This document shows, in pieces, positions 9,710 through 22,020 of a DNA stretch of 64,000 nucleotides (positions are counted from its first letter, which is position 1; the number at the start of each line of letters is the position of its first letter). The notes beneath the pieces are model-generated. The model did no database searches, was not told where the DNA came from, and saw only the letters and a list, made by a program, of their open reading frames with translations. This DNA is from Fibrobacterales bacterium Fibro_02. Its GTDB lineage: Bacteria; Fibrobacterota; Fibrobacteria; Fibrobacterales; Fibrobacteraceae. The stretch covers positions 1 to 64,000 of the forward strand of contig LVAE01000091.1 of NCBI GenBank assembly GCA_001603905.1, given 5' to 3'. Position numbers and translations under genes: made by a program.

Positions 9710-10555
9710 CTACGGTGCCATCACTTTTTCTAGCAAATTGCGGGTGGCTTCAAAAACAGTTTCAAAAGAAATTCCTTTGGAATAGTTAAAGTTTGAACTA
9801 TACCTATTCCACAGCCGTCGAACATTATTGCTCTGTTCGACAATATTCAATCGCTGGGCATATTCCTTTGTCACCACATCTGTGGACTTGCGATGTTCTG
9901 CGGTCGCAAGCAGGGCGCGCTTTAAGGTCGGGACATCAAACTCAACGAGTTTCGTGAGCATATATACATCGTAGTAGTCACGGGGGCGCGTGTTGAATTC
10001 GTCCCTTGTGATGATTGTCTCCAGTTTTTCGGCGAGAATGTTTTCGACTGGGTACGACCAGGCTTTGATGAGCGAATTGTCGAAATTTCTTTTGAAAAAC
10101 ATTTGCTGGATACCGGGATAGATGCTGTCTCCCGCAGTAATATCCATTGTCAGTGTACCACGTATTTCACCATAGCTTACATTCAAAAATGCACGGAGGC
10201 CTTGGTAATCGTCTTCTTCGCGAATACGTTCCAGATGGTCTAATTCAAAAGTGAAATCGTCCTCGACAGGAACTTGACAAACATGCGTGAGTGCCGCAGT
10301 CATCGCGGATTCGTCGATAGGAAAGTTCTTGACGGTCGTATCCACATCCATCGTCGTCCTTGCCTGAAAACCGATTAAATTGGAAATCAGGTATCCGCCT
10401 TTGAGAATGAAATTGTCTACGTAATCGGAATGTGCTAAGCGGTTGACGAAGCATTCCATATAGTAGGTATGTAACATTTGTTGTGGACGGAGATTCAGTT
10501 CAATGGCGCGGGTCTTGATAAAGGACTTGAGTTGCATCGCGTTGCGAGTTTTCAA
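9710..10555 (-). CDS. AbiEii/AbiGii-family nucleotidyltransferase toxin
   Basis: NFILKGGYLISN...RTTMDVDTTVKNF NTase motif; 4-bp overlap with upstream AbiEi-like gene. Confidence 0.85.
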   Translation of the reverse strand: MKTRNAMQLKSFIKTRAIELNLRPQQMLHTYYMECFVNRLAHSDYVDNFILKGGYLISNLIGFQARTTMDVDTTVKNFPIDESAMTAALTHVCQVPVEDDFTFELDHLERIREEDDYQGLRAFLNVSYGEIRGTLTMDITAGDSIYPGIQQMFFKRNFDNSLIKAWSYPVENILAEKLETIITRDEFNTRPRDYYDVYMLTKLVEFDVPTLKRALLATAEHRKSTDVVTKEYAQRLNIVEQSNNVRRLWNRYSSNFNYSKGISFETVFEATRNLLEKVMAP

Positions 10556-11136
10556 ATCAGCACCTCCAGATACGGGCGAATTTTATTCTCGACATTGAAC
10601 ATTCGAGCGTAATCCGTCAGTTTCCAGATTTTTCGATCCTTTGATGCCATGTACCTTTGCAAGGCGGGAATATATCTTTCCTTGTTGAAGTCTTTTCGGC
10701 TGTGGAGCAGTTCGCACAAGGTCCGTTCGATGCAATAAACCTTCAGGGGGTTGCTGTAGAACGATTGGATTTCTTGAACGCCTTCGTTTAACAATTCGGC
10801 AGGGGTCTGACGCACCAAGAAGTTCTGCCACATTTTTTTTGAGTGGTAACCCTTCGGGACGGTTACTGTAAAAATTTCAGGAAGAAGGTCACTGTATCCG
10901 GTCAAATAAAGTGCGGTCTCGTTGGAATACACCACTTTGTCGCTCAACACTTGCGGAATGTAGTATTCGTCTTCAACCACGTTAGCGAATGCGTACAATC
11001 CGTAGTTGACCTTCTTTATTTTTCCGGAATCCTCCAGATTCTTCAGGTCGTACCTAGAAACACCGTGCTCCAGGCACTGTTTAAGGGAGAAATACCCCCT
11101 ATTGGAAAATTTTCGCATTTTCTGCATCGTTTCCAT
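10552..11136 (-). CDS. AbiEi-family antitoxin
   Basis: N-terminal wHTH-like region (RGYFSLKQCLEHGVSRYDLKNLEDSGKIKKVNYGLYAF) and ETALYLTGYSDLLPEIFTVTVPKGYH; coupled to AbiEii. Confidence 0.8.
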   Translation of the reverse strand: METMQKMRKFSNRGYFSLKQCLEHGVSRYDLKNLEDSGKIKKVNYGLYAFANVVEDEYYIPQVLSDKVVYSNETALYLTGYSDLLPEIFTVTVPKGYHSKKMWQNFLVRQTPAELLNEGVQEIQSFYSNPLKVYCIERTLCELLHSRKDFNKERYIPALQRYMASKDRKIWKLTDYARMFNVENKIRPYLEVLI

Positions 11137-12272: not shown

Positions 12273-13379
12273 CTACTCAAAGAATGCGTCGGAGAGCTTT
12301 GCGCGGAAGGCGTGGATGCGGTCGGCGTTTGCTTCGCGGTGCGGGTAGGTGAAGTTGCTGAGAAGCACCACGGCGGCGCCCCGATCGGGGTCGGCGACAA
12401 TGCTTGCGCCGGTGAATCCGGTTTTGCCGAAGGTGCGTGGCGACACATGTGTCCCCATGAACTTTTCGCTGTTCAGTTCCCAGCCGAGGGCGGTGCAGGC
12501 GTTTTTGGCGGTGGAATACTTGCTGGCGGAGGGGAGCGCAAAGGCGTTTTCGCTGACCATCTTCAAGATGCCTGCGGGGGCGACCCGCGCGCCTTTCTTG
12601 ACGCAGCCCGTTGCATCCTGCGGACATTCTGCAGAAATACCGTCGTTCAAGATCATCTGTACGAAATTCAGAAGGTCGGGCACGCAGCTGAACATGCCGG
12701 CGCTACCCACAGGGAAAAGTTTCCGCAGCACCCAGGCGCTTTCGTCGTGGATTTCACCGCAGATTTCGCGACCCCTGAAACTGCAGATTTCCGTCGGCGA
12801 AATTTCGCTTTTGGGAATCGGATTCCAGTCGCGTGAGAGCGGATCCCAGCCGGAACGCGTCATGCCGAGCGGAATAAAGAAACGCTCGCGGCCCTGCTGC
12901 TGCAAGTCCTTGCCCTTGAGCCGCTGCAGGATGATTCCGAGCAGCACGCTGGCGGGGTTGCCGTAGTTGAAGTCCGCACCGGGAGCCTTTTCGAACTGGT
13001 ACGTATAAAGTGCGTCGAGGATTCCTTCGGCAGGGAGCGTGCGCAGGGTCTTCATGGGCACGCGGTAGTCGAGGCTATGGGTCAGCAGATGGAATACGCG
13101 GATATCTTCGCGGTAGTTTGTCTGTAATTCGGGGATGTAGTCGATGACCTTCGTGTCCACTGACAGCGACCCTTCCAGGATATAGCTCAGCGCAAGTGTA
13201 GACGCTGGACACACCTTGGTAAGGCTTGCGATGTCGAACACCGTCTTTTCGGGCGTGTTGAGCGAAATGATTTCGCGATGACCGTCGGGCAAGATGAACC
13301 CGGCGACCGCCCTGCTGAAAATTCCTTCGGATTCTGCCGTCTTGAGCAGGCCTTCCAATTTTTCTCTGTCGAACTTCAT
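12273..13379 (-). CDS. Serine hydrolase (class C beta-lactamase-like)
   Basis: SLTK (SxxK) motif in VFDIASLTKVCPAST; LLTHSLDYRVP; HVSPRTFGKTGFTG. Confidence 0.85.
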   Translation of the reverse strand: MKFDREKLEGLLKTAESEGIFSRAVAGFILPDGHREIISLNTPEKTVFDIASLTKVCPASTLALSYILEGSLSVDTKVIDYIPELQTNYREDIRVFHLLTHSLDYRVPMKTLRTLPAEGILDALYTYQFEKAPGADFNYGNPASVLLGIILQRLKGKDLQQQGRERFFIPLGMTRSGWDPLSRDWNPIPKSEISPTEICSFRGREICGEIHDESAWVLRKLFPVGSAGMFSCVPDLLNFVQMILNDGISAECPQDATGCVKKGARVAPAGILKMVSENAFALPSASKYSTAKNACTALGWELNSEKFMGTHVSPRTFGKTGFTGASIVADPDRGAAVVLLSNFTYPHREANADRIHAFRAKLSDAFFE

Positions 13380-13490
13380 ACCCCTAAAATACAAAACATT
13401 CCCTTAAAATGGCACGTATTGGGGGACTAAATCCGTCCTATTCGGTTGCGGTCGTTTGCATTCCGTTTTTAAATCTTATATTTTGAAGGT

Positions 13491-16088
13491 ATGCTTTTCC
13501 AAAAGATTGAAAAAGAGAAAACGCTTTGGCTGCGTTACGGCATTGTCCTTTTGATAGTGTCGATCATTGTCGTGTCGACGGTGTCGTACCTTGTTCGTGC
13601 CTATACCGTCCCGGCCAAGGCGAATATCTTGCAGTCGTGTGCTTTCTTGAACAAGAAGGATGCTTTCGCGGTAGAGAACTTCTTGAATCGCGAAGAGTCC
13701 GTTTTGAAGATGGCTAGCCGCGTGGCCGATCTGCTGGTGGAGAATCATGGAGTTTCGGGGGAGATCGAGTCGCTGAAGACCCGGACCAGGGAGGAAAATC
13801 CCCGCTTTGGCGACCTGTATGGTTTTATCAACGGAAAGCCGTATGGCAAATATCCTTTGGCGGATTCCGTCAACCCTGCTAGTGAACCGTGGTTCCAGGG
13901 AGCCTTGCTCGCCCATGGTGATATTGCGCGGATTCCGATTCACAAGGGCAAGGAATCGATGGTCGTCTTGAGCAAGCGACTTTCCGATATGAAAAGCGTT
14001 ATTGCGCTGAATGTGAAACTGAGCGCACTGCGAAACTTTGTCAATCCTTGGACATTACCCAGCATCTGGATGATCATGGATGAGCAGGGACTCATCATTG
14101 CGCATAGCAATGTGGCAAACCAGGGGCTCAATTATTCATCCTCCGAATTCTGGAATAATGACGAAAGAAATCTTGCTGACCGGGTCACCTCATCCTCGAA
14201 TGAAGCCCCGGGCGAAAAACAGTTCCTGCTCAATTACGATGGTGTCGACTACCAGGTTTTTTCTACACCGATCAAAGGCAGTTGGTTCATGGTCCGGATG
14301 GTTGAAAATAAAGTGCTGTGGAACGAAATGTACTGGACCGTTTTCAAGGGAATAGCCGTTGTCGTGTTGCTGTATGTACTGATGATTCTGTTGATGTCGC
14401 TCAGCTTGATGAACCGATTCAGGGCGATTCGTGTAAGCCAGGCGAAAAGCGGATTCTTGACTAATATGAGTCGTGAAATCCGCACTTCAATAACGGGGCT
14501 GCTCGGCATGAATTCTATCGTGATGAAGGAAATCCGGGATGACGGGCTCAAGGAATACCTGAAGAATATCCAGAATACGGGACAGGGTATCTTGTCGCTT
14601 GTGAATGACGTCCTGGATGTCTGCAGGATTGAATCGGGTAAGATGAGCATCGTCTCAATGGAGTACGACATCTTTTCGGTGCTGGCGGACTGTTACAGCG
14701 CCAACGAACTGAAAGCGTCGGCAAAGAAGTTGCGCTTTACGGTGGACTGCAATCCGGATATCCCGTCGAGCCTGTGGGGCGACGAGAACCGTATACGCCA
14801 GATTATCAACAACCTGCTTTCGAATGCGATCAAGTTTACCGAAGTGGGCGAGGTCACCTTGCTGGTGAATTACGAGAACCTTCCTCCAGTGGGAACGCTG
14901 AAATCCGACGAGTACGTGATGCTTTCGTTTACGGTCAAGGATACGGGAACCGGCATCAAGAAAGACGAGCTGGGCTTGATTTTCAATAAATTCGCTTCGC
15001 AGAATATGGATGATCCCTCCGAAGGAATTGGTCTCGGCCTGTGCTTGACCAAGGAACTCGTAGAAAAGTGCGGGGGCCAAATTACGGTGAACAGCCGCCT
15101 GGGAGAGGGCTCCTCCTTTACGGTCAGGATTCCGCAGCTCGTGCTGAATATCGAACCGATGGGCGATTTTGCCCTGAGGTACAAGGGCCTTGGCCGCAAG
15201 AGGGGCGACTTTTCGGGGATTTTCCTTGCACCTGAGGCACGCATCCTGATCGTGGACGATGTCGAGCTGAATCTCAAGGTGCTCCGTGGGTTCTTGCGGC
15301 GGTTCAAGGTTCAGGTGGACGTGGCGGTGAGCGGCGCGCAGTGCCTGAAGCTTGCTCAGTCCAAGCATTATGACTTGATTTTCCTGGACCACATGATGCC
15401 GGTGATGGATGGCGTGGAAACGTATCGCAAGATGAAGTCCCTGGAAAACTTCATCAACAAGGATACGCCAGTCATCGCGCTCACTTCGGAAGGTTCCAAC
15501 GAAGTCAGCGAATCGTTCCTGGTGATGGGTTTTGCCGATTATCTGCCCAAGCCGATCAAGGAGCGTGACTTGCAGCGGGCGCTCAAGTGGTATTTGCCGA
15601 AGCAGCTTGTCCTTTCGGGCGAAGACATCCAGGAGGTCGCCGGTGCCCAGACTTCTGTCGACACGATACAGCTCCCTATGCCCGCACCGACCTTTAATGA
15701 CGAAATCGAACTTCTGCAGGTGACGGTGAACCCCTACGAAAAGCTTGCGCCCTTCAAGGACTGTCTGGATATCAAGGCGGGCCTGGAGTATTGCGCCGAT
15801 GACAGCGACATCTATATCGAAATGCTGCAAGAATTCATCGCCTCGCCGCTCCACCGCAATGTGGAAACTTGTTTCAAGAACGAGGATTGGGAAAACTACA
15901 AGTTCTATATGCATGTCCTCTGTGATTCCTCGGCGGCAATCGGTGCTATTGGCATGGCGGAGAAATTCCAGAATCTTGAAAATGCCTGCCGAGAATCTCG
16001 CATGAACGTGGTCCGTGAAAATCACGACCTGGTGATGGCCCTGCACGCGGAACTGGTTCGCAATATCCAGAAGGGGTTGGAAGAATGA
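13491..16088 (+). CDS. Membrane hybrid histidine-kinase-like protein (sensor, DHp, HATPase, REC, HPt) lacking the H-box histidine
   Basis: Two TM segments around a Cache-like sensor; NMSREIRTSITGLLGM in place of NMSHEIRTP; HATPase N/G1/G2 boxes present; REC VDD/FLDHMMPVMDG/LPKP; HPt-like YMHVLCDSSAAIG. Confidence 0.9.
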   Translation: MLFQKIEKEKTLWLRYGIVLLIVSIIVVSTVSYLVRAYTVPAKANILQSCAFLNKKDAFAVENFLNREESVLKMASRVADLLVENHGVSGEIESLKTRTREENPRFGDLYGFINGKPYGKYPLADSVNPASEPWFQGALLAHGDIARIPIHKGKESMVVLSKRLSDMKSVIALNVKLSALRNFVNPWTLPSIWMIMDEQGLIIAHSNVANQGLNYSSSEFWNNDERNLADRVTSSSNEAPGEKQFLLNYDGVDYQVFSTPIKGSWFMVRMVENKVLWNEMYWTVFKGIAVVVLLYVLMILLMSLSLMNRFRAIRVSQAKSGFLTNMSREIRTSITGLLGMNSIVMKEIRDDGLKEYLKNIQNTGQGILSLVNDVLDVCRIESGKMSIVSMEYDIFSVLADCYSANELKASAKKLRFTVDCNPDIPSSLWGDENRIRQIINNLLSNAIKFTEVGEVTLLVNYENLPPVGTLKSDEYVMLSFTVKDTGTGIKKDELGLIFNKFASQNMDDPSEGIGLGLCLTKELVEKCGGQITVNSRLGEGSSFTVRIPQLVLNIEPMGDFALRYKGLGRKRGDFSGIFLAPEARILIVDDVELNLKVLRGFLRRFKVQVDVAVSGAQCLKLAQSKHYDLIFLDHMMPVMDGVETYRKMKSLENFINKDTPVIALTSEGSNEVSESFLVMGFADYLPKPIKERDLQRALKWYLPKQLVLSGEDIQEVAGAQTSVDTIQLPMPAPTFNDEIELLQVTVNPYEKLAPFKDCLDIKAGLEYCADDSDIYIEMLQEFIASPLHRNVETCFKNEDWENYKFYMHVLCDSSAAIGAIGMAEKFQNLENACRESRMNVVRENHDLVMALHAELVRNIQKGLEE

Positions 16089-17194
16089 TCAGGTGGCTTA
16101 TTGCTTTATCGATCGTAGTGTCTGCGATTATTGTGTCGGTTATAGTTGTGTATGACTATGATTCCGGTAACGAACATGTGCGGAAGAAAACCCGTGTCGC
16201 CATGATTATGAGAGGCGTTCGTAATGACCACAGCTGGAACGAAGCTCATTACGAGGCGCTTGAAAAAGTGGCTCGTCGCCTGAACTTGGAAGTGACGGTT
16301 TATGATAATATTCCTGCCGATTCCACGGCGTACAACAGCATTGAAAAGGCGGTTGCCAACGGGGCCGAAATCGTGATTGCGAATTCGTTTGATTTCGGTG
16401 CCGCGGCGATGTCGGTTGCCAAGAAGCATCCGAAAGTCAAGTTCCTGCATGCGGCGGGGGTGCGGACGGAAACGAACCTGTTGACCTATTTTGGGCGCAT
16501 CTACCAGATGCGATACCTTTCGGGAGTCGTGGCTGGCCTTAAGACCAAGACGAATGAAATCGGTTACGTGGCGGCTTTCAGGATTCCTGAAGTTGTCCGC
16601 GGGTTGGATGCGTTTACGCTCGGCGTCCAAAAGGTGAATCCGCAGGCAAAAGTGTTCGTGAGCTGGAGCCATTCTTGGTCGGACGAATCGATGGCGGCGG
16701 AGGCGACGCATAGCTTGCTGAAGAAACATCACATTGACGTACTGACGGTTCATCTGGATGCGCTTTCGCCGTATGAAATCGCCGATGAGAAGGACGTCTG
16801 GATTGTGGGATACAACATGGATAACTCCTCGCGTTTTCCCAATCATTTCTTGACCGCTCCCGTGTGGCGCTGGGAAAACTTTTACGAGGCGCAGATTCGC
16901 GACATTATGTCCGACAACTTTATTCCGGAAAAGTACTGGCTCGGAGTCGAAAGCGGCGTGGTAGATCTCGCTCCGCTGACGGAGCATGTCGGCGAGGATA
17001 TTGCTAAAGTCGTTGCCCATGAAAAGGAAATGCTTGCGCAGAATCGTTACGATGTGTTCTGGGGGCCGATTGTCGATAGTCACGGAAACGTTCGCGTAGA
17101 AAAGGGCGAATGTATTTCCGACGAGGATTTGCTTGAACATTTTGACTGGTATGTCAAGGGAGTATACGATGGAACTAAATCCCAGAAGTACTAA
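16085..17194 (+). CDS. BMP family (PnrA/Med-like) periplasmic binding protein, membrane anchored
   Basis: VAMIMRGVRNDHSWNEAHYEAL, IVIANSFDFGAAAMSVAKKHPKVKFLHAAG, YLSGVVAGLKTKTNEIGYVAAF; N-terminal TM without lipobox; ATGA overlap with preceding gene. Confidence 0.85.
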   Translation: MIRWLIALSIVVSAIIVSVIVVYDYDSGNEHVRKKTRVAMIMRGVRNDHSWNEAHYEALEKVARRLNLEVTVYDNIPADSTAYNSIEKAVANGAEIVIANSFDFGAAAMSVAKKHPKVKFLHAAGVRTETNLLTYFGRIYQMRYLSGVVAGLKTKTNEIGYVAAFRIPEVVRGLDAFTLGVQKVNPQAKVFVSWSHSWSDESMAAEATHSLLKKHHIDVLTVHLDALSPYEIADEKDVWIVGYNMDNSSRFPNHFLTAPVWRWENFYEAQIRDIMSDNFIPEKYWLGVESGVVDLAPLTEHVGEDIAKVVAHEKEMLAQNRYDVFWGPIVDSHGNVRVEKGECISDEDLLEHFDWYVKGVYDGTKSQKY

Positions 17195-19694
17195 GGTCAA
17201 TATCGAGCTGGTGGTCTGGATGGCCATCGTCGTTTTCGCCCTCTGCATTGTCTGTATCTTGTTGAGGGTGAAGCTGGAAGGTTTTCTGGACCAGTACGAG
17301 TCTCGGCAGGTCTTGCAGAAGTCCACGCTCGTCGCTGAATTGGCGAACGAGAATTTCCGCGGCCGCCTGAATTCGCTGGAGGCCATGGCTAGGCATATCG
17401 AGAGACGTTCCTATGGCGACGGAACGTTTGCCAGCTTGAATTCCGATATCAGGACTTTTAATTACGGTCTGCTGTCGCTCGGTGACGGATATTTCGTGGG
17501 GGATACACTCGCGGGAGTTACTGTTGAGCAATTCGGCTGCTTGGCCGAAGCGCTGCACGGAACGAAGACATTCTGCTATCGTAAGGGAAAGGGCCTGCTT
17601 TTTGCGGTTCCCGTCTACCATAACCGAAATATCCGCTACATCCTTTATAGGCTGAATCGCGAAAGGGGAACGGATGATTTCTTTGATGAAAACTGCGTCT
17701 CCGAGAAATGCTACACGGTGGTGCTGGATAGCAGCGATAATCCTGTCATTGAATCCAAGAGGGGAAACTGGAAAAACGATTCCAGCTGGCGTGCGCTGGA
17801 TTATGCGAAGGTCTATGAGCGCTTGAGGTTGCGGGACCAGTGGAAGGGCGCTTCGGTTGTCAGCGAGAACGTGGGTGGCGAACTCTACTATTTCTACCGC
17901 GCGAAGCTGGGATACCGTGGTTTCTCGCTTGTTGGGATGGAGCCGAAAGCCAAGGTGGGAGCAGGGCTGAATAGGATCCCATTCCTTGTCTTCTGTGTTG
18001 TCGGAATGTTGGTGGTCCTTTTCCTGATGGGGATTGTTGCCTGCTTTGTAGTAGATCGTAAGCGGAGGGAACGGTACCGGCTGCGCAAGGATGCCGACCC
18101 TGTTGACGAACTGCAGCAGGAACAGCTTTCGCTGTTGCGCAATGCAGGAACAGAGATGCGCGCTCCCTTGTCGAGTATCCTTGCGATGAACTCGATGATC
18201 GCCAAGGAGAATCGGGACCCTGCCTTGAAGGATTACACCCGGAATATTTCTGGTGCGGGGCAGTGGCTGCTCTCGCTGGCGGATGACCTGGAAGATATCG
18301 CGAAGGTCGACCTGCATTCGCTTGAAATTGCGACATCGGAATATGACCTGTTCGCTGTGTTGAGCGGTTGCTTTGCGGCGGCGGATAGTGTGAACAAGAC
18401 GAAGAATTTTGAACTGAAGGTCAATAGCCGAATCCCGTCGAGGCTGATCGGTGACGAAATCCGTATCCGACAGATTCTGGGGAACATCTTCTTCAATGCA
18501 GAGAAGTTCTCGTCGGGTGCGGTGGCGGATATCTTCATCGATTACGAACGCATCGTCGAAGAAGACGGCGAATGGGATGGCCGCAATATCAACTTGATTA
18601 TTAAGGTGCCCGATTCGGGAAGCGGCTGGACGGGAATCGGATTGACTCTGGCGCGGCGGCTGGTGCTCTTGATGCAGGGCGAATTGAGGCTGGATGCCTT
18701 GCTGGACGACAAGCCTGCCTTTATGATTGTCCTGCCGCAACAGGTGGCGCGAAATGAACCTGTTGGGGAATTCAAGCGGCGCTACGATGAGCTGCAACTT
18801 TCGTCCCGCAACAGTACCCGTTACTTCTGTGCGCCGACTGCGTCTGTCCTGGCGGTCGATGCCATGCTTATGAACCTGCGCGTGATGGGCGGCATGCTCA
18901 AGGAAACGGAAATCCACATGGATGCCGTAGATAACGGTATGGAGGCGCTCGAAAAGTTCAAGCGTAAACATTACGATATCGTGTTCCTGGACCACGCGAT
19001 GCCCGTGATTGACGGAATGGATCTTTTCACGATGATGAGTGGCCTCACGGATCACCCGAACAAGGATACTCCTATCGTGATGCTGACGGCAAGCAGTGAG
19101 ACGGTCGCAAGGGAAATCTGCAAGAAGATCGGGTATGCCGATTTCTTGACGGAACCTGTCCGCGAGGAATCGCTGTTTGCGATGCTCCTGAAATTCCTGC
19201 CGAAGGATATGGTACAGTGGTTTGATGCTGCTCCCGAAGAAAGTATCGAAGAAGAGGAACCGCGGAAGGAAATTCCTGCGGTACCGCCGCGTAAGCGGCC
19301 GGAAGTCCTTGCGACGGCAACTCCGGAAACTCCGATGCTTCCGGATGATCTGGAAAACTTGATGACGACGGGATTGGTCGATGTACTCATTGGTCTAGAA
19401 TGTTGTCAGATGAACGAGGCGATTTACCGTAAGAAGTTGATGGACTTCTCGTCGGACCATGCGGACGTTATCTTGAATTCGTACTTCAAGGCGGAAGATT
19501 TCGAGAATTACCGCTTGCTGGTGCGTTCGCTGAAGAGCAAGGCACTGTATATCGGTGCGGTGGAAATATCGAGTATCAGCAAGACGCTGGAATTCGCTTG
19601 CAACGAGGGTGACTATGATTTTGTCCGTAATCGTCATGGCGAGCTGATGCAGAAATATCGCCAGCTGATGCAAATCTTCAAGGAGCTTTTCTGA
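17169..19694 (+). CDS. Degenerate hybrid histidine-kinase-like protein
   Basis: Two TM segments; NAGTEMRAPLSSILAMNS (H->T); G1 VPDSGSGW directly adjoining TGIGL (ATP lid/F box absent); REC with FLDHAMPVIDG but TEP in place of TKP; HPt-like VRSLKSKALYIG (H->R). Start assigned to MELNPRS. Confidence 0.85.
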   Translation: MELNPRSTKVNIELVVWMAIVVFALCIVCILLRVKLEGFLDQYESRQVLQKSTLVAELANENFRGRLNSLEAMARHIERRSYGDGTFASLNSDIRTFNYGLLSLGDGYFVGDTLAGVTVEQFGCLAEALHGTKTFCYRKGKGLLFAVPVYHNRNIRYILYRLNRERGTDDFFDENCVSEKCYTVVLDSSDNPVIESKRGNWKNDSSWRALDYAKVYERLRLRDQWKGASVVSENVGGELYYFYRAKLGYRGFSLVGMEPKAKVGAGLNRIPFLVFCVVGMLVVLFLMGIVACFVVDRKRRERYRLRKDADPVDELQQEQLSLLRNAGTEMRAPLSSILAMNSMIAKENRDPALKDYTRNISGAGQWLLSLADDLEDIAKVDLHSLEIATSEYDLFAVLSGCFAAADSVNKTKNFELKVNSRIPSRLIGDEIRIRQILGNIFFNAEKFSSGAVADIFIDYERIVEEDGEWDGRNINLIIKVPDSGSGWTGIGLTLARRLVLLMQGELRLDALLDDKPAFMIVLPQQVARNEPVGEFKRRYDELQLSSRNSTRYFCAPTASVLAVDAMLMNLRVMGGMLKETEIHMDAVDNGMEALEKFKRKHYDIVFLDHAMPVIDGMDLFTMMSGLTDHPNKDTPIVMLTASSETVAREICKKIGYADFLTEPVREESLFAMLLKFLPKDMVQWFDAAPEESIEEEEPRKEIPAVPPRKRPEVLATATPETPMLPDDLENLMTTGLVDVLIGLECCQMNEAIYRKKLMDFSSDHADVILNSYFKAEDFENYRLLVRSLKSKALYIGAVEISSISKTLEFACNEGDYDFVRNRHGELMQKYRQLMQIFKELF

Positions 19695-20227
19695 TGGAAG
19701 AACAGATAGACGTGTTGAATGCGGACGGAACGTCGGCGGGTTATTCCTGTGGGCGCAGCAAGGTGCATGCCGAGGGCCTTTGGCACCGGACGGTGCATAT
19801 CTGGGCGTTCGATTCGAACAGGCGTATCCTTTTCCAGTTACGGAGTCGCGTCAAGGAAAACAATCCGGGGCTTCTCGACACGAGCTGCGCCGGACACATT
19901 TCGGCGGGGGATTCCAGCGTGAACGCCGCCGTGCGCGAACTGCGCGAGGAACTAGGCGTGCACAAGAGTTCGCGCGACCTCGAATACCTATTCGAGGCCA
20001 AGCACGAAAGCGTGCTTAACGGCGGCTCCTACCTCGACAACGAGTTCTATGACGTCTACCGCATCACGCTTTCCGACGACGAGATAAAGTCGCTTGTGCC
20101 GCAACCGGGCGAAGTGGACGGCTTCGTGTGGATGACCCGCGAGGAATTCTTCGCGAAGCACAAGCTGCATCCCGAGAAGTTCGTGGAGCATCCGAAGGAT
20201 TACTGCTGGCTTGAGGAAAATGCCTGA
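19694..20227 (+). CDS. NUDIX hydrolase
   Basis: Nudix box GHISAGDSSVNAAVRELREELGV; start overlaps previous stop. Confidence 0.9.
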   Translation: MEEQIDVLNADGTSAGYSCGRSKVHAEGLWHRTVHIWAFDSNRRILFQLRSRVKENNPGLLDTSCAGHISAGDSSVNAAVRELREELGVHKSSRDLEYLFEAKHESVLNGGSYLDNEFYDVYRITLSDDEIKSLVPQPGEVDGFVWMTREEFFAKHKLHPEKFVEHPKDYCWLEENA

Positions 20228-20541: not shown

Positions 20542-22020
20542 ATGGGCGGCTTTTGCGGTGTTGTTTCTAAAGAAGACTGCGTAAGTGATCTCTTCTTTGG
20601 AACCGATTACCATTCTCATCTTGGAACCCACCGTGGCGGTATGGCAGTTTTGAATCCGATCGGAAAGTTCCATCGTTCGATTCACAATATCCAGAACACC
20701 CCGTTCCGCAGCAAGTTCGAACACGACCTCGCCGCGTTCTCGGGCAAGGTGGGAATCGGCGTTATCTCTGACACTGATCCGCAGCCGCTCGTGATGACCT
20801 CCAAGCTTGGCACCTTTGCCATCGTGACAGTCGGTCTCATCTCGAACATCGAAGACCTGAAGAACGAACTCTTCAAGAACAACTGCATGCAGCTCCAGTA
20901 TTCGACGACCAGCGGAATGGTCGGCCCGACCGAAGTGGTGTCTGCGCTTATCGCTACGCGAGACTCGATTGTGGACGGCCTCAAGTATGTCCATGAAAAG
21001 GTGAAGGGCAGCTGCTCGGTGCTCCTGATGGACAGCGAAGGAAGGTTCTACGCAAGCCGCGACAAGTGGGGCCGCACGCCGATCGTTCTCGGCAAGAAGG
21101 AAGGCTCGATGATTGCCGTTCAGGAAAGCTGCGCTCTGCATAACCTCGGTTACGAATATGTCCGCGACATGGGCCCCGGTGAAATTGCCGAACTCACTCC
21201 GGATGGCGACAAGACACTCGTCGCTCCTGGCAAGAAGATGGCCATCTGCTCCTTCCTCTGGGTCTACTACGGTTATCCCGCTTCCAGCTACGAAGGCCGC
21301 AATGTCGAAATGACGCGCTACCGCTGCGGTTCCGCTCTCGCCAAGAGAACTCCGACCGAAGCCGATGCCGCTTGCGGTATCCCGGATTCCGGTACCTCCC
21401 ACGCTTTGGGTTATGCGCACGAGGCCGGCATCAAGTTTGCACGCCCCTTTGTCAAGTACACACCGACCTGGGCCCGCTCCTTTATGCCGCAGGACCAGAA
21501 GCAGCGCGAACGTGTCGCCTCGATGAAGCTCATCCCGATTCCGGGACTCATCAAGGACCGTCGTCTCGTGTTCTGCGACGACTCTATCGTGCGTGGCACG
21601 CAGCTCGGTAAGCAGGCCCTCAAGCTCTATTCGCTCGGCTGTAAGGAAACGCACATGCGTATCGCTTGTCCGCCGCTGGTTTACCCCTGCAAGTTCATCA
21701 ACTTCTCCCGTTCCAAGAACGAGTACGACCTGATTACGCGTCGCTATATCCGCGACAAGGAAGGCGAAAACGCCGATATCGAAAAGTACACGAACCCGGA
21801 TGGCGAGGAATACAAGGGAATGGTCGAGTACATCCGCCAGAAACTCAACCTGACGACACTCGCCTTCCAGCGCATCGACGATGTCATCGCGGCCATCGGT
21901 CTCCCCGAAGATCAGCTCTGCACCTACTGCTGGAGCGGTAAGGACTTCGCCGAGACGGGTGACTGCTATCATTGTCCCTGCCACTGCGGTGAAAGCTCGG
22001 ACAAGAAGGATAAGGAATAA
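20542..22020 (+). CDS. purF: Amidophosphoribosyltransferase (glutamine PRPP amidotransferase)
   Basis: MGGFCGVVSKEDC...YHSHLGTHRGGMAV; LVFCDDSIVRGTQ PRPP motif. Confidence 0.85.
   Translation: MGGFCGVVSKEDCVSDLFFGTDYHSHLGTHRGGMAVLNPIGKFHRSIHNIQNTPFRSKFEHDLAAFSGKVGIGVISDTDPQPLVMTSKLGTFAIVTVGLISNIEDLKNELFKNNCMQLQYSTTSGMVGPTEVVSALIATRDSIVDGLKYVHEKVKGSCSVLLMDSEGRFYASRDKWGRTPIVLGKKEGSMIAVQESCALHNLGYEYVRDMGPGEIAELTPDGDKTLVAPGKKMAICSFLWVYYGYPASSYEGRNVEMTRYRCGSALAKRTPTEADAACGIPDSGTSHALGYAHEAGIKFARPFVKYTPTWARSFMPQDQKQRERVASMKLIPIPGLIKDRRLVFCDDSIVRGTQLGKQALKLYSLGCKETHMRIACPPLVYPCKFINFSRSKNEYDLITRRYIRDKEGENADIEKYTNPDGEEYKGMVEYIRQKLNLTTLAFQRIDDVIAAIGLPEDQLCTYCWSGKDFAETGDCYHCPCHCGESSDKKDKE

Follow-up and report, generated by a model that had tools for sequence, protein, structure and literature searches.

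Two hybrid histidine kinases that flank a BMP-family binding protein in Fibrobacterales bacterium Fibro_02 both lack the histidine of the H-box, and our data support that this loss was fixed in a lineage that is under purifying selection. The window, which is the whole stretch of 64,000 nucleotides that was analysed, carries the three genes (HK1, BMP and HK2) at positions 13491-19694, with neighbouring genes overlapping. Since the histidine is lost in both kinases and yet all three parts are under selection, the trio probably signals without kinase activity of its own. It combines two known kinds of system, the binding-protein-dependent receptor and the pseudo-histidine kinase, and the evolutionary series behind it is unusually clear. 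The features of the module and of its neighbours are:

12273..13394, minus strand: beta-lactamase-family serine hydrolase; divergent neighbour outside the module that marks the conserved chromosomal site
13491..16088, plus strand: HK1; TM1, dCache-like sensor, TM2, HisKA (DHp), HATPase, REC and HPt, with Arg at the H-box His position
14442..14639, plus strand: HK1 DHp/HisKA domain (residues 318-383); 46.9 bits, above the curated cut-off, without His
14472..14474, plus strand: HK1 H-box codon CGT, Arg (NMSREIRTS), by alignment column; R, N or S in the 12 fully degenerate orthologs and T in G117
14778..15137, plus strand: HK1 HATPase_c; boxes N, G1, F and G2 all intact, with catalytic motifs also conserved across 12 orthologs
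15387..15389, plus strand: HK1 REC phospho-acceptor Asp (LIFLDHMMP); kept in all orthologs
15912..15914, plus strand: HK1 HPt His (YMHVLCDSSAAIGA); kept in 12 of 13 orthologs, the Lys usual after this His being gone
16085..17194, plus strand: BMP-family binding protein; predicted N-terminal TM anchor, no lipobox Cys, putative purine-base pocket W S F R E G W H D
17169..19694, plus strand: HK2; TM1, dCache sensor, TM2, degenerate DHp, degenerate HATPase (lid deleted), REC and an HPt without His
18150..18152, plus strand: HK2 H-box codon ACA, Thr (NAGTEMRAP), by alignment column; Q, T or K in 12 orthologs and His in G117
19524..19526, plus strand: HK2 HPt His position, CGT, Arg; R or Q in 13 of 13 orthologs
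19694..20227, plus strand: NUDIX hydrolase gene overlapping the HK2 stop; overlap or close abutment kept at orthologous sites

HK1 is an 865 amino acid protein, and HK2, which has the same domain plan, has 841 amino acids counted from the ATG at 17169. The HK1/BMP junction is an ATGA overlap at 16085, whilst the HK2 ATG sits within the BMP gene and has AAGGGAG upstream of it. In a Pfam search HisKA, HATPase_c and REC were found in HK1 and in HK2, with the HisKA and HATPase_c of HK2 scoring under the curated cut-offs. The BMP protein (369 amino acids) matches PF02608 at 165.7 bits (cut-off 24.1); its single TM segment is N-terminal and a lipobox Cys is absent, which suggests that it is probably membrane-anchored. 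Fibrobacter are gut bacteria, for example the rumen species F. succinogenes. Elsewhere in the window (9710-11136, minus strand) an AbiEii toxin/AbiEi antitoxin pair (type IV toxin-antitoxin) lies beside a TauE/SafE-family gene.

The H-box column was read from an alignment of 70 sequences, and the Arg of HK1 and the Thr of HK2 fall exactly in it. The preliminary description had placed the gene overlaps, the HK2 start and both codons correctly. No His was found anywhere in the DHp domain of HK1 or HK2; therefore a displaced H-box His is rejected, and autophosphorylation at the H-box of either kinase is excluded on sequence grounds. The window genome has nine HisKA kinases, and the seven others all carry the H-box His. 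HisKA kinases sampled in four further genomes carry it too, except for the orthologs of this locus and with one truncated contig unassigned, as do all kinases near BMPs in the wider scan except L085, which is a Fibrobacter HK1 ortholog (G092 locus). A sequencing error or a local mutation was also rejected, because the loss is common to 12 species; orthologs do not mostly retain the His, which is found only in earlier-branching orthologs and in paralogs.

Whole-genome searches that covered 111 genomes of the family found the HK1-BMP-HK2 trio at one chromosomal site in 13 Fibrobacter genomes. At all 13 loci the flanking genes are the same, one of the beta-lactamase family and one NUDIX gene, and in most cases the NUDIX gene overlaps HK2 by 1-17 bases. 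Both H-box His residues are lost at 12 of these loci, where HK2 is also without the lid and the HPt His; the one exception, G117, combines a His-less HK1 with an HK2 that keeps its His, and BMP2 has been lost there. At the same site G011, G036 and G082 have the order HD-GYP regulator, kinase, HK1, BMP1, BMP2 and HK2, with HK1 and HK2 canonical. In G009 and G092 HK1 is degenerate and HK2 is canonical, and G095, in which the H-box lies outside the contig, is probably like them. Species with none, one or two dead kinases are all still extant. The kinase tree requires two changes in total, one loss per kinase and HK1 before HK2, on strongly supported branches; as it comes from a quick search and has some long branches, the exact placement of G009 is unsure. 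In the sister genus (L074, G065) the order is BMP-HK-HK with canonical His kinases, a gene order unlike that of Fibrobacter.

In the 12 doubly dead species every open reading frame of the trio is intact, with identities that go down to about 50%. Pairs of close species have dN/dS values of 0.03-0.16, which is also the range of the canonical paralogs. The histidine kinase fold is here kept under selection after the loss of its own H-box chemistry, as that loss is read from the sequence. Within the doubly dead group the mean pairwise identity of the DHp is 76% for HK1 and 65% for HK2; the corresponding value for the paralogous module in these genomes is 93-97%. That of the HK1 HPt is 82% and that of both RECs is 78-79%. 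Constraint in this group has moved off the DHp while the HK1 HPt and both RECs stay conserved. When window positions 12900-19500 are compared with the locus of G096 (L056), their closest relative, the nucleotide identity is ~98% in HK1, 80-88% in BMP and HK2 and 92-96% downstream. The edges of this recombination block lie near the HK1/BMP and HK2/NUDIX junctions, which suggests that BMP and HK2 move as a unit.

The window genome also has a canonical module, on contig C102, with a REC-REC-HD-GYP regulator, kinase, BMP, BMP and kinase and with all His intact. A canonical BMP-BMP-HK module is present in 11 of the 12 doubly dead genomes and in none of the 7 earlier-stage genomes (Fisher p 1.6e-4, for an association that is not phylogenetically independent and amounts to one or few evolutionary events). 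G096, which is 100% complete, keeps the doubly dead trio and has neither the canonical module nor its cognate HD-GYP regulator; therefore that partner is not obligatory, and the option that the trio needs the canonical module is weakened. The option that it talks to the cognate HD-GYP regulator is weakened as well, since G096, G117 and G009 are without an ortholog of this regulator (best matches about 40% identity, against 60-85% elsewhere).

A wider scan for BMP relatives covered 85,000 genomes. In other organisms the closest relatives belong to gut Lachnospiraceae, Ruminiclostridium, Selenomonas and Treponema, and their genes are part of BMP(-BMP)-hybrid-kinase operons, frequently together with HD-GYP or GGDEF proteins; the next-closest are in ordinary ABC-permease operons. 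Operons of the BMP(-BMP)-hybrid histidine kinase type, often with REC-HD-GYP or REC-GGDEF genes, were seen at L076-L105, L107, L108, L111, L134, L145 and L148. In one Lachnospiraceae locus (L082:14723-16648) an HK1-like dCache sensor is fused to HD-GYP and REC, and it adjoins a BMP-BMP-HK operon. The canonical modules of Fibrobacter (L034 and others), Lachnospiraceae, Selenomonas and Treponema resemble the trio in their homologous BMP and HK2-type kinase and in their order, and the BMP1 members of the Fibrobacter ones have the same pocket residues as the trio BMP. Unlike the trio, however, these modules keep the H-box His, as well as the HPt His in those kinases that possess an HPt, and as a rule they contain two BMPs.

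The solved structures closest to the BMP protein are AtzT (6pi5, E 1e-53) and a Brucella BMP lipoprotein (3s99, E 2e-51). These two give bit scores of 178-186, compared with 28 for 2fqw, and so the nucleoside pocket of the PnrA/TmpC type was rejected as the nearest model. The nine AtzT pocket positions in the window BMP are identical to those of 3s99 and are kept in nearly all orthologs; they hold the aromatic sandwich with Ser, Glu and polar residues that characterises the purine-base clade. AtzT binds guanine at 110 nM (6pi5), and in the Brucella structure (3s99) adenine was modelled. Based on this match, a purine base is a better guess for the ligand than a nucleoside, and we revise the earlier proposal of a nucleoside-like ligand accordingly in favour of the AtzT/3s99 clade over the nucleoside-binding PnrA. 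AtzT and 3s99 are transport-type solute-binding proteins, whereas the BMP of the trio is TM-anchored and encoded between kinases. The observation that no permease is nearby can be extended from the neighbourhood to the genome: the BPD_transp_2 permease has 0 matches in the window genome assembly (89% complete), with a control that was positive in 12 of 14 genomes. For this reason a transport role of the BMP is very unlikely and a permease encoded elsewhere was rejected, although at 89% completeness a missed permease operon is still conceivable. At 20542-22020 (plus strand) there is a putative amidophosphoribosyltransferase, purF-like by our reading and with Pfam GATase_7 as its only match. In the window genome, G096 and G035, but at none of the other orthologous loci, this gene comes directly after the module and its NUDIX neighbour, 0.85 kb downstream of the module, an arrangement that is suggestive only.

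The dCache_1 match of the HK1 sensor is weak in the window (E 4e-5), but HMM searches assign the sensor of HK1 orthologs to dCache, with E 1.6e-10 in L041; a single-sequence AlphaFold model of this sensor has a pLDDT of 42. The AlphaFold model of the HK2 sensor (pLDDT 82) shows a dCache fold, and its Foldseek matches are dCache chemoreceptors and kinase ectodomains. Searching PDB sequences with a profile of the HK2 sensor gave nothing informative. The ectodomain of LuxQ is of the tandem PDC (dCache-like) type and LuxQ senses via LuxP (PMC8534201), and many binding-protein-dependent sensor kinases adjoin the gene of their binding protein (PMC11113362). The trio has the same elements, a binding protein encoded with a kinase and a PDC/dCache ectodomain, and the fact that its members always share one site is in keeping with a receptor complex. 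It shares with LuxP/LuxQ of Vibrio, TorT/TorS and XylFII/LytS a periplasmic binding protein encoded with the kinase. It differs from them in that the binding protein belongs to the BMP/PnrA purine family and in that one binding protein is flanked by two different kinases, both without the H-box His.

The two kinases, described earlier as a pair of pseudokinase receptors, are alike in the missing H-box His but are not equivalent. By its residues HK1 is dead at the H-box only: the ATPase boxes are kept, the REC has its Lys alongside the phospho-acceptor Asp, and the HPt His is present. Around this His the usual Lys/Gly are gone, and the REC Thr is missing from most HK1 orthologs, so that phosphotransfer may be impaired. 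HK2 is degenerate in the DHp, in the ATPase domain (ATP lid deleted, G2 changed), in the HPt and, in the window, in the REC, where the conserved Lys is replaced by Glu and an acidic-pocket Asp by Ala, with the phospho-acceptor Asp kept. An output by HPt/REC exchange, which had been suggested for both, is therefore plausible for HK1 but not for HK2 in the window genome.

The conserved ATP site, REC and HPt of HK1 best fit a ligand-gated adaptor that acts on another hybrid kinase. We give an even chance to a LuxPQ-like purine-gated receptor that turned into a pseudokinase adaptor, with HK1 acting on another hybrid kinase and HK2 sensing or dimerising. The membrane-anchored BMP would bind a periplasmic purine base, which HK1 and HK2 would receive from it through their dCache ectodomains. 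The trio would descend from an active module of a REC-HD-GYP regulator, hybrid kinases and two BMPs at the same chromosomal site. HK1 was the first to lose the autophosphorylation His and HK2 followed; one of the two BMPs, the additional kinase and the regulator disappeared too. HK1 may exchange phosphoryl groups with, or allosterically alter, another active hybrid kinase, and such an adaptor would relay, drain or bias the phosphoryl flow of this partner, something that RcsD, RetS and DivL achieve in different ways. DivL/CckA, RetS/GacS and ChrS/HrrS are precedents (PMC12189002, PMC9491836). The partner would most probably be the canonical paralogous module (contig C102), and HK2 would be a sensing or dimerisation subunit. 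A more far-reaching reading, which we put forward tentatively and consider somewhat doubtful, is that a receptor without any autokinase step passes a purine signal via the HK1 HPt/REC and a heteromeric pseudokinase receptor to c-di-GMP-linked kinases, the living intermediates recording the conversion.

One alternative, unlikely in our judgement, is a purely allosteric DivL-like pseudokinase, in which HK1 and HK2 heterodimerise with active kinases and alter their activity purely through conformation, while REC and HPt serve for folding or binding only. In DivL and ChrS the ATPase and the His are dispensable (PMC12189002, PMC9491836). The losses around the HK1 HPt His and in its REC, as well as the dead ATPase and HPt of HK2, would agree with this. 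Yet in 12 species HK1 has conserved N, G1 and G2 boxes, together with a conserved HPt His and, in the REC, a conserved Asp and Lys, which is beyond what pure scaffolding needs. Another hypothesis is that HK1 is still catalytic and that its intact ATPase domain phosphorylates a partner His in trans within a mixed dimer. It would account for catalytic boxes that are conserved though the acceptor His is gone; HK1 also lost its His first, and in G009, G092 and G117 the HK2 of the same operon still bears a His, permitting trans-phosphorylation. However, HK2 is without His in 12 genomes, so that the partner would have to be encoded elsewhere, and the closest candidate is absent from G096; we find this option improbable. 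Little weight can be given to a decaying locus, a redundant duplicate that is shedding its chemistry on the way to pseudogenes. Step-by-step disappearance of the His, the ATP lid, the HPt His, one BMP and the regulator, and a canonical module in most doubly dead genomes, would be expected from decay, but the intact frames and a dN/dS within the active-paralog range argue against it, as do the pocket residues, gene overlaps and chromosomal site that are all kept and the retention of the trio even in G096. An ordinary two-component system that uses another DHp phospho-acceptor is scarcely credible even with REC and HPt present and an HK1 HisKA above its cut-off, since there is no His in either DHp and the replacing residue varies (R/S/N/T in HK1, Q/T/K in HK2), so that none is conserved.

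The adaptor model, which we prefer, brings the trio close to DivL, RetS, RcsD and the ChrS variant, which are membrane proteins derived from HKs that serve an active kinase as modulators or relays, and RcsD relays through its HPt as HK1 could (PMC12189002, PMC9491836, PMC7418988). In contrast to these, the partner of the trio is putative, both kinases of one operon are dead, a binding protein is coupled to them and live-to-dead intermediates still exist. Pseudo-histidine kinases such as DivL and RcsD are known singly; in the present case the change from live to dead ran through an entire receptor operon, in ordered steps and at a single syntenic site, and the live ancestor type survives as a paralog and in sister species. 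These natural variants make the role of a non-autophosphorylating histidine kinase directly testable. No published description of BMP-type receptor kinases, or of such Fibrobacter two-component systems, was found in the literature searched, and the BMP(-BMP)-hybrid kinase operons of gut anaerobes, with their BMP proteins, hybrid kinases and HD-GYP/GGDEF regulators, apparently form an undescribed family of purine-base receptors, whose genes can easily be mistaken in annotation for those of nucleoside ABC transport proteins.
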